Below, in pieces: positions 10,461 to 16,759 of a DNA stretch of 64,000 bases. Position numbers and translations under genes: made by a program. The stretch spans positions 124,001-188,000 of the forward strand of contig WHVA01000064.1 of NCBI GenBank assembly GCA_015179125.1, read 5' to 3'. Position 1 is the stretch's first letter, and each line of letters opens with the position of its first letter. Source of the stretch: Gautieria morchelliformis (taxonomy: Eukaryota > Basidiomycota > Agaricomycetes > Gomphales > Gomphaceae). The notes under the pieces are model-generated. The model worked only from the letters and a program-made list of their open reading frames with translations. It was not told the origin of the DNA and did not search any database.

Positions 10461-10808
10461 GGGTGCGGAATCTATAGGCAATATTGTATTGTGTTCTGTT
10501 GTGTCAGCGCAGGAGTGCCGAACAAAGTGTGATGGCTACACAGTATAAATCATTGTTATTTCTCTTGTAATACTGGGGTTAGGAATATATATGGGTTTCA
10601 CAGAATGTAAATGTAAACGTCTTTAAAGTTTAACGTTGTCCACCGGCGTCTGGGGATTAGGTAATCCGTAGACGGCGGCCTGCATGGACCCTCCCTCCGT
10701 CCTTCTCCGGTCGCGACCCTTCGCAGTGCTTGCGCTGTCGACGCTAATGGCCGGCATGTCGCATCGTTTTGGTTTATCGCGTCATCGAGGCTTGTCGACA
10801 GCGTGTTC

Positions 10809-10972
10809 TGTTGCGATTTCGGGGAGAGAGGACGCAAGCGAGGGGGACAGCACCGACTTGGTGTTGTGGCAGGTTACAAACGGATAAGTAAATACATGTA
10901 AACTACTGCGTATTTGTAAGCTACGCGTTATGGCGGTCACTCGATGCCGCTCGCAAATCCGGAATATCAACA
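10809..10972 (-). repeat. 3' LTR of the Gag-only element
   Basis: 164 bp, TG...CA, identical to 11993-12156. On the minus strand it follows the gag stop codon by about 40 nt; the purine-rich GAGAAGGTG just before it may be the polypurine tract. Confidence 0.9.
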
Positions 10973-11014
10973 CACCTTCTCGAGCGGGAGAGAGTCCGAG
11001 GCACCTCCTGAAGC

Positions 11015-11776
11015 CTAGAACGCAAAGCCCTCGTCATCCTCTACTCCAGCATCTGCTACATTGGCCGTGCCACGCCTCGCAGAAGGACAGTCGGACTGGT
11101 AGTGGCCCTTACCGTCGCAGTTGTAGCAGGTAATGTCCTCTACCGGCCTCTTCTTCTTGGCAACAGCAGCGAGTGCGCCCTCCATTCGCTCGGTCTCCGA
11201 CTTGGCTGCTTGGACCTGGCGCACCTCCTCGTTCAATAGGCGAGTGATAACGATGTCGAGGGTGAGATCGTCGGCCGGAATGCTGTCGAGTGCGACGATG
11301 AAGGTGGAGTACGATTCTGGGAGCCCTTCGGTGAGTGCAAGAATGACATCCTCATCTATGATGCTAACTCCAGCAGCTTCAAGCTGGAAGGCAGCATTCT
11401 TGACGTCAGAGATCCATGAGACCATTGGCTGGTCGTCGCGCTTGCGCATGTAAAGGAAATGGCGGCGGAGTGAAAGGCGTGTGGCAAATCCACGAGCCCG
11501 GTGGACCTTCTCCAGGCTCTCCCAAATCTCCTTTGGGTCATCGTAGCGCGTGTGCGGAAGCTGGGGTTTGTCGATGTTAAGGATGATCTTTGCGTGGGCA
11601 AGCTGTTGCTTTTTCGTAAACGCGTGGACGGCTTTTGAGTTCGGGGAGCCAGTGGGTTGTGTCTCAGTGCCATCAACAACGTCCCACAGATCCTTCTCGA
11701 CCAGTAGGGCAGCCATTACGTAGCGCCAGTTATTGTAGTTCATCTCGTTGAGTTTTTCGAGGTGTGGGTCGGGCAT
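11015..11776 (-). CDS. Copia-type Gag (UBN2-like) with zinc knuckle
   Basis: This is the structural capsid/nucleocapsid protein of a Copia-type retrotransposon. The start is the ATG at 11776 in an ACCATG context (MPDPHLEKLNEMNYNNWRYV). The UBN2-like part includes NYNNWRYVMAALLVEKDLWDVV, LPHTRYDDPKEIWESLEKVH and ALTEGLPESYSTFIVALDSI. It is followed by KKKRP and one CCHC knuckle, CYNCDGKGHYQSDC, near the C terminus, and ends in an acidic tail. It is about 253 aa, usual for gag, and the frame is intact although no pol follows. Similar N-terminal motifs occur in the gag remnant at 37656. Continued integrity of the frame suggests selection on the Gag product or a very recent origin. Confidence 0.88.
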   Translation of the reverse strand: MPDPHLEKLNEMNYNNWRYVMAALLVEKDLWDVVDGTETQPTGSPNSKAVHAFTKKQQLAHAKIILNIDKPQLPHTRYDDPKEIWESLEKVHRARGFATRLSLRRHFLYMRKRDDQPMVSWISDVKNAAFQLEAAGVSIIDEDVILALTEGLPESYSTFIVALDSIPADDLTLDIVITRLLNEEVRQVQAAKSETERMEGALAAVAKKKRPVEDITCYNCDGKGHYQSDCPSARRGTANVADAGVEDDEGFAF

Positions 11777-11797
11777 GGTGGACAAAATGGGGTGGGT

Positions 11798-11949
11798 ACA
11801 CTTTCGGTAGGTGTGTGCAGAGCTTTCGGTAGGCTCAGATTCAGTGCGCTTTCGGTAGGCGCAGTCGACGTGCTTTCACTAGGCACGGGTATGGTCAACG
11901 GTCGGTTCGGCACGCTTTCGTTACGCGTGGCGCACTTCCAGTAGGTGCG
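11798..11949 (-). promoter_or_regulatory. Array of six hairpins with a constant loop and covarying stems in the gag leader
   Basis: Six inverted repeats of 4-5 bp each surround a 9-nt loop (plus-strand consensus TTTCGGTAG; variants TTTCACTAG, TTTCGTTAC, TTCCAGTAG). Stems: ACAC/GTGT (11798-11814), GAGC/GCTC (11820-11836), TGCGC/GCGCA (11845-11863), CGTGC/GCACG (11869-11887), CACGC/GCGTG (11911-11929) and CGCAC/GTGCG (11931-11949). Every stem sequence differs, yet each is complementary. The array lies between the 5' LTR and the gag ATG, where retroelement packaging and dimerisation signals usually lie. Function is inferred. Confidence 0.75.
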
Positions 11950-11992
11950 ACTTTTGGCAGGCAGTGCCTAGACAGATGTTGTGATCTGTTTG

Positions 11993-12156
11993 TGTTGCGA
12001 TTTCGGGGAGAGAGGACGCAAGCGAGGGGGACAGCACCGACTTGGTGTTGTGGCAGGTTACAAACGGATAAGTAAATACATGTAAACTACTGCGTATTTG
12101 TAAGCTACGCGTTATGGCGGTCACTCGATGCCGCTCGCAAATCCGGAATATCAACA
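11993..12156 (-). repeat. 5' LTR of the Gag-only element
   Basis: 164 bp, identical to the other LTR. The sequence immediately inside it does not contain the GGTTATGGGCCCC primer site used by the two other Copia elements of this window, so its primer is unknown. Confidence 0.9.
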
Positions 12157-12161
12157 TGTTC

Positions 12162-13079
12162 TGTTTTTCTTCTATTAAGTTCGTCTTCTCAAGGGGCGCG
12201 GGTCGTGAAGCCACCAGGCAGACATCACTCGGTTCCCCTTTCCTACTTCGCGTGGCAGCCAGCACTAGTGGCCGTTCTCCGCTCGCGCCTTTGTTCAATT
12301 AGCGTCACTTCCCCTATTCCTTTCATACCCTTCGCACCCTGCTTCCTCCCCCTATATGACAACCTTAAAGCTTAACCCCGCATCTCGCTATCCCTGATTC
12401 TGCGCTGTCTCTTCCTCTTCCCTCGTGCTTCCCCTTCCTTCACCCATTGCGTGTGGTTACTCCCTGTCTAGTTCCGTGACTCTCCACTTCCCCACATCCG
12501 CTGCTTTTGTCCACTTCCCGTCCTCGCCCTTTCAGCTTGCGTATTCTTATTCATGTTATTTTCTCTGTCACTTTCATCGCTGTCATCGTGTACCATCTGC
12601 TCAGCGCCTCTGCCGTCAACCTTCACCTTCGTCTCGCCCAATGCTTTCTCTTCTATTCTGTCCAGAACCTGCCGACTAACGCTAACCCCCGTCCCCCCAG
12701 AATATTTAGGCCTCAGGTACGTCCTCGAGCAGCCCGCCATCGGCTCCGCATGCACCCCCGACATTGTCTTCTGAGTCTATCAGCTCATGTTTGCTGCTAT
12801 CACGTGAGTTTTTGTGCAAAAGTGGTGGAAATATTCAGCTTTAGTGTATGTGTGGTCTGCTAATGCTTGCAGAAATCCGACACTCTTCTGTCGTACGTCG
12901 TGTCGTTGTTGGCGAGGTCACACAAACAAAGGAGTCCAGCACGCCGGTAATACTTATACCAGTTGTCCCCAAGTTAGTCAGTCCTCCTTCCACCTTCCGT
13001 CCCCCCATGGTCACCGCGCTAACGTATGAGACCTGACTTCGAAGTTTGCGCTATAGCTGTGCTGTGCATCTATTTTCAT
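12162..13079. other. Pyrimidine-rich region without a supported gene
   Basis: The plus strand is strongly CT-rich from about 12300 to 12700. Short open frames on both strands lack family motifs. A plus-strand ATG frame at 12553-12774 encodes a Ser/Leu/Pro-rich peptide that looks like a by-product of the CT bias. Confidence 0.4.
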
Positions 13080-13311: not shown

Positions 13312-13348
13312 AGAGTTACCACTACAATACTATTGTAGTGGTAACTCT
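13312..13348. repeat. Perfect 18-bp-arm palindrome
   Basis: AGAGTTACCACTACAATA is followed by one base (C, 13330) and then by its exact reverse complement. The two arms can form a cruciform or an almost loopless hairpin. It is not part of a recognised element. Confidence 0.85.
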
Positions 13349-14182: not shown

Positions 14183-16759
14183 ATGGCCCGTCAAAAGGGC
14201 AAAGTAACCACCAAACCACCCGGGGAGCCGCCTCCCAGCAAACCGAAAACCCATGAGCGGGACGTGGTAGATCCCTCACACATAGTCGAGGGACATCGAT
14301 CCAGGACCCCTTCCAGTCGTTTACTCCAGTCAAGTGATGCAAAACCGGTCTCCAAGGGAGGATGTTCACATTGACAACAATGTACATTCTTCTAGGATAT
14401 ATTAGATATCTTTTAAAATATCAACCCTAACCAAATTCATAGTCCATCATTTTGAGCAACTTGTATATTGTGGATATCCTAAATTTTTTTGAATGTTCTG
14501 ATATTTTAAAAATATGGTTGTATGTGCTAAAGGATGGTGTGTATTGATATAACAGAGCAATTTCAGAGAGGATGTGGATGACTATATATTAAAAGTATAC
14601 ATGAAACATGTTAGATGTACAATCACAGAATATAGAAGCAAGTATGGACAATACCTGTACTATATTATTATATATGGTTGAGAGATCTGATTAGAAGGTG
14701 TGTTTAAAATAATATGCATGTATTAGTACAAAGATATGTAACTATTGATGTTTAGACAATGGGGTATACACCTTTTCCTGGGGGAGCAGCAGACTGTGAG
14801 AAAGAACTTTGGGGCTAGGATTAAGCATGCCTTACAGGTGCTGGCAACTGCCTCAATTTTGATATATTTTATGAAATATAGATGAGCTAAGCTATATATA
14901 CATATATATGACAGTTATAAACATCCTCCAAGCCGGCGACCCGCTCAGAGACAGCGAGGATACCATCTAAGCCCCCTCCAGTTCGTCCCTCTACTGCTCC
15001 CAAGGCCACGACCGCTGCTCCCAAGGCCACGACCACTGCTCCCAAGGCCGCAACCGCTGCTCCCAAGGCCATGACCGCTGCCCCTGCCCCCGCGCCCGCC
15101 ACGACCGCTGCCCCTGTCCCCGCCCCTGCCGTGACCGCTGCCGCTGCCGCTGCCCCCGCCCCTGCCCCTGCCGCTGCCCCTGGCCCTGTTACTACTGCGG
15201 CACTCAGTACGAGTCTAGAGGAACAGGAGTCCCAAATCGAAACTGATGCGGATGACGAGGATCTTTACGTGGACCACCCCTCAGTGAGCAGCGACGAAGA
15301 TCTATTTTCAGGTTCTGACCAGTCGTCAAAGGCTAGAGTGGCGAGAAAGGTTGGCAAAAGGCAGCAGTTGCCTTGCCTCACAGTATGTTTCTTATTCTCA
15401 CTTTTTTTCTGCACACTAACAATTTATATACAGCTATTAAGTTTAGTATCCCCTCCCGTTTCGGACTCAAACAGCTCATATGGCGTACACACCATGTTGA
15501 GCCGACAACGACCATAGCCGACCTGAAGGAGACCATTCACCTCATCCTCGGCCTGGATGCGATACCAGCCGTGAAGCGCCCTCCCCTTGTTACGCATATC
15601 AAACACGATACGGCCAAGCTTTGTTTCGCTCTCGACACTGACGATGACTGGGAGGCCCTTAAGGACGAATGGAGGAAACGGGCAGCAAAACGGGGTGAAG
15701 ATACCTGCATTGAGATTGTAACTGGTCCTAAAGTAAGTTTTATTTTCTTTTGTTCTTCTACAGCTAAATTTTTGATAGTTTTTTGACTTTCTGGAGGAGG
15801 CCGTTGCGGCACACGCTGCATCCTCTAAAGGAAAGGCCAAGGGCAATGCCAAGCCTGCCGTTAACCCCTTTCTTCCGGACGACGCAGCCATTGAGTCTGA
15901 GTTGGTGGCAAAGCTAGGTGCAGCTGATATGGCCAGGTCAGCATGATTCCAGGAGGAACTCGGGAAGCTCAGGGAAGCCTGGTCCTGTGACCAGCACCCC
16001 AAGTCAATATATATGGCGCGTGCATTGAGGGGCCACCACAAGGTACTGAACTTCGAGGGCGAACTTTCCTGGGTATTAGAGCTCGTAAGGTTTTCTCTGA
16101 TCTCTTTTTTATTTCATGTGCTAACATTTTAATAGATAGGTGGTACAAGCGGCGTGGACATCAACACCCCTCCCAAGATTGAGTATTTCAAGTTCTTCCA
16201 CACCCAAGATGGCGGCAGTGCCCCAGTCCTTCGTCGAGGTGGCGCGCGGCATTATAGCGAGCCACCCACTAGCATGCATCGTGACGCCGCTCCTCCTGTT
16301 ATGCCTTCTGTTCCCCCCATCCACATCAATTTCCCTGCCGACATCTTTCAGCATCTCCAGGCGTCTCACCACTCTCGTCCCAAACGGGGCCGCTCCCCAT
16401 CACCCAGTGATCGTGTGGCAAGTCCGGACGACAATGCACCAGTGGACGACTCGCCTACCCCCACCATCTGGGAGTGGATCACGCACTTGGAGATGCAGCA
16501 CCTCGCGTACAAGAGGTGGGATTTTCTGCGACAGAAGTTTGCCGAGGAAGAGTCAATGGATATGCTCATTAGCAGCCTCGCGAGACTATCGCTTGCGAAC
16601 TTGAAGGTTGGGTATAGTCTCAAGATGGTTGATGCAGTGTTTATCTTGGAACAGCTTGAAGTGGCGGGGAAGTGGTATGGTTTTGCGGTAGGTGCTCAGG
16701 CAGTATTAAAGTGGAAGGTGACTCACGTGAGTGGCGCCGGGCCTGCCGTCACACCGTGA
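14183..16759 (+). pseudogene. Agaricomycete-specific multicopy family protein, broken by a MITE and a stop
   Basis: The start is the ATG at 14183 (MARQKGKVTTKPPGEPPPSK). If the MITE at 14357-14929 is skipped, the frame continues without a shift into a Pro/Ala-rich linker and an acidic stretch. Exons separated by three short introns then give TTTIADLKETIHLILGLDAI, AKLCFALDTDDDWEALKDEW, FQEELGKLREAWSCDQH, LSWVLELIGGTSGVDINTPP and a C-terminal part (MLISSLARLSLANLKVGYSL) ending at 16759. This order matches a large uncharacterised Agaricomycete family often found near transposons. An in-frame TGA at 15944-15946 (between MARSA and FQEE) could derive from CGA by one transition. With the MITE and this stop, the copy is presumably dead. 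Its original role is unknown. Confidence 0.72.
14357..14929. mobile_element. MITE, 573 bp, 10-bp terminal inverted repeats
   Basis: Ends are GGAGGATGTT and AACATCCTCC, an exact inverted pair, flanked by AAG on both sides (14354-14356 and 14930-14932). Removing the insert and one AAG restores the reading frame of the host pseudogene. The interior is AT-rich with no open frame. A 3-bp duplication fits PIF/Harbinger- or CMC-type transposition; because CTCCAAG also occurs on both sides, the exact target duplication is ambiguous. Confidence 0.75.

Follow-up and report, generated by a model that had tools for sequence, protein, structure and literature searches.

A multi-hairpin array in the 5' leader of small Copia-type LTR elements of Gautieria morchelliformis as a candidate Gag-recruitment site

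RNA selection by LTR retrotransposons is poorly understood; Ty1 Gag is reported to bind RNA tightly but with little specificity (PMC8396678). A 64,000-nucleotide stretch of the genome of Gautieria morchelliformis (contig WHVA01000064.1, positions 124,001 to 188,000; hereafter the window) contains a short LTR element, the leader of which carries a row of six small hairpins with different stems around nearly the same loop. Is this row a product of chance or of copying, or is it a selected signal, and which molecule would then read it?

The window element and its six hairpins

The element extends over 1,348 nt and its features are collected in Table 1. Both LTRs are 164 nt long and identical, the sole mismatch of the LTR-LTR alignment lying outside the LTR, and together with the TGTTC duplication that flanks both of them this identity indicates that the insertion is probably young. 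The Gag product matches PF14223 (Copia gag, 6e-33), PF13961 (DUF4219) and PF00098 (zf-CCHC). Gag is the only long sense frame with a domain match, and pol is absent, as the length of the element leaves no space for one. The assignment of the hairpins to the leader of a Gag-only LTR element, made earlier from the letters alone, is therefore borne out by the LTR pair and by the three Pfam domains. A search of the genome (122 Mb) with the element returned at least 53 whole or partial matches, and a search with the leader returned 52 (E up to 0.1). The Gag protein search yielded 97 relatives, of which the named ones came from Hypsizygus and Phanerochaete; most of the listed contigs were shorter than 5 kb, and no Gag relatives were found in the viral contigs searched. 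Elsewhere in the window, two perfectly complementary 18-nt arms separated by 1 nt form an inverted repeat at 13312-13348, and tandem repeats lie inside an alanine- and proline-rich frame at 14994-15189.

Table 1. Features of the Gag-only element in window coordinates (the element reads on the minus strand; hairpins, self-primer, primer site and purine tract are given in element sense)
Feature	Position	Strand	Details
Target-site duplication, 5 bp	12157..12161 and 10804-10808	.	TGTTC; direct reading of sequence
5' LTR	11993..12156	-	ends TGTTGATATT...GCAACA; 164/164 nt equal to the copy at 10809-10972
Putative self-primer in 5' LTR	12061..12069	-	ATCCGTTTG; presumed start of R and RNA 5' end; complementary to primer site
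Putative primer-binding site, directly after 5' LTR	11984..11992	-	CAAACAGAT; CAAACGGAT in other copies
Leader, 216 nt	11777..11992	-	no ATG in the window copy
Hairpin 1, nearest LTR	11931..11949	-	CGCAC-CUACUGGAA-GUGCG
Hairpin 2	11911..11929	-	CACGC-GUAACGAAA-GCGUG
Hairpin 3	11869..11887	-	CGUGC-CUAGUGAAA-GCACG
Hairpin 4	11845..11863	-	UGCGC-CUACCGAAA-GCGCA
Hairpin 5	11820..11836	-	GAGC-CUACCGAAA-GCUC
Hairpin 6, nearest gag	11798..11814	-	ACAC-CUACCGAAA-GUGU; weak when folded alone
gag	11015..11776	-	253 aa, Copia-type with zinc knuckle; Pfam
Putative polypurine tract	10973..10981	-	GAGAAGGTG; short, purine-rich, before 3' LTR; read from sequence
3' LTR	10809..10972	-	aligned with 5' LTR

All six inverted repeats that the sequence-only reading had listed are present within 11798-11949, with stems of 4-5 bp, loops of 9 nt and arms that on the plus strand read, from 11798 to 11949, ACAC/GTGT, GAGC/GCTC, TGCGC/GCGCA, CGTGC/GCACG, CACGC/GCGTG and CGCAC/GTGCG. 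The same reading had called the loop constant, which is exact for three of the six hairpins (TTTCGGTAG on the plus strand) and does not hold for the others, which carry TTTCACTAG, TTTCGTTAC and TTCCAGTAG. In element sense (CUACCGAAA three times, CUAGUGAAA, GUAACGAAA and CUACUGGAA) the loop is CUANYGAAA, with drift in two of the six window loops.

Six such hairpins, each with a 9-nt loop and at least four Watson-Crick pairs, arose in 3 of 1,236,135 dinucleotide shuffles of the 216-nt leader, while three hairpins with similar loops (at most two mismatches) arose in none of the 1,236,135 and in none of 20,000 shuffles of a separate run. When the six left and right 5-nt arms of the window were re-paired in all combinations, the observed 28 of 30 pairs were reached by one arrangement in 720, the real one. 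The same test in 12 other loci ranged from 0/100,000 (L090) to 2/24 (L063, L064), the outcome in the latter two being weaker because their stems repeat; L060 is also weak (12/720). The folding energy of the whole leader was ordinary in the window (z -0.28) and mildly low in L090 (z -1.33), and is uninformative as evidence for the array. Single-hairpin folds, informative for five of the six with the GAGC hairpin excluded, gave -4.8 to -6.3 kcal/mol for four window hairpins and -1.6 kcal/mol with a shifted stem for the ACAC hairpin. An Rfam covariance-model search of 10700-12300 produced no matches at E up to 1.

Stems in other copies and in a second family

Other copies do not lose the complementarity of the stems, the outcome that had been named in advance as counting against a structured leader: 97.6% of stem cells are paired in 15 aligned family-A leaders, and the stems of other subfamilies are likewise paired. 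The 15 leaders show four double changes, and 4 of 500 shuffles yield as many. Each of these changes replaces CG with UA or GC with AU, as a pair of CpG decays could do, and CpG transitions account for 71 of the 123 family-A changes. The non-CpG changes comprise 4 over 56 stem columns, 16 over 54 loop columns and 32 over 106 spacer columns. By these counts the family-A stems look constrained, the non-CpG count being also lowered by CpG-rich stem columns, and the loops are no better conserved than the spacers.

A second family, the LTRs of which were read in L061-L065 and L067, has LTRs and leaders that are not alignable to those of family A, and only part of its gag matches the window element (query 446-959; C14, C304, C342, C403). 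Its Gags are 54-65% identical to the window Gag, and 10 of 13 leaders carry 3-6 strict hairpins, in which stems other than those of family A, for example CGCGC, CACGC or UUGAGC, are complementary around CUANYGAAA. The earlier claim of changing yet complementary stems is thus confirmed in other copies as well as in other subfamilies, with the loop largely kept. The second family (L061, L062, L063, L065, L067) and L090 also carry another small hairpin, with the loop GGCCGAAG on stems CUGG/CCAG or UGUCGA/UCGACA; it is present as well in L069, L070 and L104 (Gag 49%), the latter three being without the CUANYGAAA array.

Covariation among paralogous hairpins, as distinct from hairpin frequency, was assessed on 16 distinct hairpin units hand-picked from the window, L059, L061 and L090. 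Paired cells amounted to 93.8% against 73.3% in shuffles, 21 cells had changed on both sides against 6.4 expected, and the covariation score was 0.700 against 0.280, each of these values being reached by none of 500 shuffles. Two cruder measures were not above the shuffles, namely pairs with a double change (185/500) and further pair types (460/500). Sliding the units by one column lowered the pairing to 3.8-4.7%, and sliding them by +2 columns left 75.0% paired. The third pair occurs as CG, UA, AU and GC, a set that CpG decay alone could not produce. Stem mismatches in the copies included 38 G-U and 52 A-C with no preference for G-U; this asymmetry, tried as a strand test, is without bias and does not show which strand is selected.

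A genome-wide pattern of two loops CCTANNGAAAG spaced 9-39 nt, in which the stems were ignored, matched at 188 places, and the reversed pattern used as a control matched at none. The loop-picked sites were examined in 42 loci chosen because they resemble the leader or Gag, leaving out the duplicates L040, L057 and L084 as well as L050 and L087, which have one strict loop each. At least four of five stem pairs were found at 163 of the 183 sites and all five at 88, and at least two different paired stems were present in 41 of the 42 loci. A loop triplet searched in viral and prokaryote contigs gave 55 loci, with 26 of 235 sites paired, 39 loci without a paired site and two different paired stems in a single locus; among the matches listed, the flanks mostly repeat unchanged, like ordinary repeats. 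CUAAC accounted for 26 and CUACC for 85 of 188 loops in a tally in which the search pattern itself fixed 7/9 positions, and on these numbers a likeness of the CUAAC loops to splice branch sites was dropped.

Gag-less derivatives, priming and the distribution of the array

The array also occurs in elements without gag. L090 (L090:592-1497) is 906 bp long, with LTRs identical at 126/126 positions and the duplication AAAAC; its interior consists of a primer site, loop motifs, a gag-end-like piece (by eye; no Pfam match) and a purine tract, and holds no frame of at least 80 aa. It carries 14 strict loop motifs and, by a looser count, 13 sites with at least 4/5 pairs. L118 (706 bp, duplication ATAGC) has 7 paired sites and, judged from its LTRs (117/123), is an older copy. 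L121 (883 bp, duplication ATCTG) has 8 paired sites between LTRs that belong to a third type and are identical over 166 nt, and L123 has 9 paired sites between LTRs of the same type (159/167). Neither the 116-aa frame of L121 nor the 87-aa frame of L118, the longest in sense direction in each, was matched by a Pfam domain at E up to 1, and GAGGAGGTG stands at the position of the polypurine tract in L090, L118 and L121. Among the seven loci L117-L123, LTR pairs are found in L118, L121 and L123, whereas L120 has two partial LTRs, L117 has one LTR, L119 has one LTR of each type and L122 is rearranged. Another locus, L091 (C304:247600-249900), seems to be an LTR element of greater age, in which the hairpins have decayed and the interior is long and non-coding.

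Apart from the primer site, the array of 7-13 hairpins and a short tail, the Gag-less derivatives retain little. Their LTR pairs and target duplications imply that RNAs lacking gag, with arrays of at least equal length, have been mobile, and in the two cases with identical LTRs recently so. Read in this way, the derivatives can be regarded as a natural deletion experiment in which gag was lost and the array was kept and even lengthened. The interior of L121 matches L090 closely over its 3' part and not over its 5' part, and the near-identical 3' interior was found between two LTR families; the Gag-less interiors have thus probably been exchanged between LTR families and are recombinant, a pattern that co-packaging of such RNAs followed by recombination would produce.

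Directly after the 5' LTR, a 9-mer is complementary to a stretch of the LTR located 41-85 nt upstream, at 9/9 positions in 9 of 20 rows and at 8/9 in 11, with LTR junctions taken from a pattern fixing CAA (one from a pattern built for L094) and many rows from one family. The window copy pairs at 8/9 positions and L032, L034, L036 and L045 at 9/9. Of the other interior 9-mers, 0 to 2.1% match as well as the primer site does, and complementarity ends with the 9-mer (8-10 of 12). A blind exact scan detected the self-primer match in 4 of 40 leaders, none of them at Gag 29-32%. The primer/site pairs differ by family (ATCCGTTTG/CAAACGGAT, ACGCAGTTG/CAACTGCGT and ATGCGTTTG/CAAACGCAT), and further pairs were read by eye in L121 (GTGCGGTTG/CAACCGCAC) and L123 (GTGTGGTTG/CAACCACAC). 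With the RNA 5' end presumed, the arrangement matches putative self-priming of the Tf1 type. The Tf1 self-primer has 11 nt; the present one has 9 nt and goes with a Copia-type Gag and Gag-only elements. As a separate observation, the self-primer pair covaries between LTR families (window, L032, L065, L070, L071, L121, L123) in a Tf1-like manner alongside a Copia-type Gag. A site after the LTR that is complementary to an LTR stretch at the presumed RNA 5' end is shared with Tf1/Sushi elements and the plant TAR lineage (PMC6317226, PMC5445492); self-priming of the Tf1 type is predicted for the plant Copia TAR lineage (PMC6317226), and a complementary U5 repeat was sought and not found in fungal GalEa elements (PMC5445492).

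The distribution of the array was followed in 40 leaders that precede Gag matches not belonging to family A, the gag start being estimated for some partial matches. Among the 13 leaders with a Gag at least 54% identical, 10 have at least three strict hairpins and three have fewer (one in L113, none in L115 and L099). None of the 27 leaders with a Gag less than 54% identical has any hairpin, and the array is absent from all 15 distant Copia leaders of the genome (Gag 29-32% identical), several of which precede open frames of 1,358-1,466 aa; elements with such frames we take for autonomous Copia, judging from frame length. Across these leaders the array accompanies close Gags and is not a general property of Copia elements, an association that may reflect plain descent. 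Its absence from the distant leaders argues against helper Gags of that type using the array as a handle. A primer motif that we take to be half-tRNA-Met-like is present in 15 of the 40 leaders and in none of the 10 with the array. Among 100 of the 188 loop-pair places listed (C1 to C417), none lies by eye beside a Gag copy with a frame longer than 1,000 aa; several listed arrays have no listed Gag alongside, and, although copies of the element are many in the genome, no autonomous partner with a like LTR or leader was found among these places.

Candidate readers of the loop and known systems

The hairpins exceed chance, the loop is largely kept while the stems change on both sides, and the array occurs in several LTR families and is retained in Gag-less derivatives that have moved. 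We favour, with moderate confidence, the view that selection maintains the array as a cis-acting RNA signal, which small non-autonomous LTR elements of the Copia type carry in their 5' leader and which Gag would read as a packaging site in RNAs copied by a helper. It would most likely be a multivalent Gag-recruitment (packaging) site, binding by Gag being what we infer from the pattern. A loop largely kept on varying stems suggests that whatever reads it recognises single-stranded RNA; the stems would merely present this loop, and several weak sites might sum to a strong landing site. Since the array accompanies close Gags and is missing from other Copia leaders in the same genome, the best candidate for its reader is this group's own Gag, acting most probably at packaging. 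The zinc-knuckle Gag of the Gag-only group would bring array-bearing RNAs into particles, whether they come from its own elements or from Gag-less ones, and there the reverse transcriptase and integrase of a putative Copia helper would copy them, starting from the 9-nt self-primer. Inspected by eye, the loop is not self-complementary, which makes a loop-loop dimer site improbable.

Retention of the array without gag fits a host RNA-binding protein as well as it fits Gag acting in trans. The hairpins would then be needed by Gag-less RNA for export, localisation, stability or escape from silencing, and a loop that is short and conserved (7/9 positions being fixed by the search pattern) is like a typical RNA-protein site; we nevertheless consider such a host factor rather unlikely, because the 15 distant Copia leaders of the same host do without the array, which is thus not demanded of Copia generally, and because its presence tracks close Gags. 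The array could also have grown without selection as a by-product of copying: a short repeat would have multiplied, and template switching in the course of reverse transcription would have turned imperfect palindromes into perfect ones. The variable array length, the duplicated blocks and the recombinant look of the Gag-less interiors would agree with this origin, which nonetheless leaves unexplained why the loop is conserved across families with different stems, and we hold it to be quite improbable.

Control of gag translation, by hairpins that slow or steer scanning in the 5' leader, is suggested by the position of the array directly before gag and by the window leader being free of ATG. 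We judge it very unlikely: the longest array sits in a derivative without gag, and retention of the array in such derivatives speaks against a role in gag translation only; moreover, the hairpins are weak and 14 of 22 other leaders have acquired an ATG. Equally unlikely would be a feature of the DNA itself, such as sites for a DNA-binding protein or parts of a promoter. The inverted repeats are equally present in DNA, and their mismatches show no strand bias; proteins that bind palindromes, however, keep the arms, whereas here it is the intervening spacer that stays and the arms that differ, which points again to a single-stranded loop.

Known elements offer partial parallels. Terminal-repeat retrotransposons with a GAG domain (TR-GAG) are short LTR elements with Gag as the sole gene. 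By this definition, the window element resembles them in being a short LTR element with Gag as its only gene and sole coding domain, two LTRs with TG..CA ends, a primer site, a purine tract and a target duplication, and it differs in being fungal, in its multi-hairpin leader array and in having a self-primer instead of a tRNA site. L090, L118 and L121 are like TRIM elements, being shorter than 1 kb, with two LTRs and target duplications and with no Gag domain and no complete Gag or Pol gene; in contrast to TRIM, their Gag-less interior is largely hairpin array, like that of their Gag-only relatives. TRIM elements are reported from three of five Boletales genomes (PMC5689174).

For Ty1, the cis packaging signals are placed within the first 580 nt and include a pseudoknot (PMC8396678). 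Retroviral and Ty1 packaging signals share with the present array a structured 5' leader beside gag, which would be needed in cis if our reading is right, and the conserved RNA structure expected of such a leader was found here by the re-pairing and covariation tests. The array differs from these signals in presenting one loop many times on varied stems, and a row of same-loop hairpins is more like coat-protein operator hairpins. The GalEa Conserved Hairpin Site likewise places a hairpin at the leader start of a fungal Copia element without a tRNA primer site; its 9-mer at the LTR junction is palindromic (PMC5445492), whereas the junction 9-mers here (CAAACGGAT, CAACTGCGT and CAAACGCAT) are not palindromic and match the LTR, and the hairpins are many, so that this type of site was rejected as a candidate. 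A limited search of the open literature, including accessible parts of PMC5445492, PMC6317226, PMC3248453, PMC5689174, PMC4905642 and PMC8396678, found no comparable leader array.

More tentatively, it is possible that the array functions as a tradeable multivalent RNA 'address', in which Gag-only and Gag-less elements of one genome exchange and extend their rows of same-loop hairpins and compete for a shared Gag independently of LTR type, each LTR family keeping its own self-primer; the hairpin number is 6 in the window element and 13-14 in one Gag-less element (L090). If Gag is the reader, the loop would also be a candidate for an RNA-tagging pair. The natural series of Gag-only and Gag-less elements, of several array lengths and of LTR swaps offers a compact, testable RNA-protein pair, and lets one ask whether non-autonomous elements compete by valency. 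Were the proposal true, a three-tier parasitism of helper, Gag-only and Gag-less elements would be readable from the number of hairpins.
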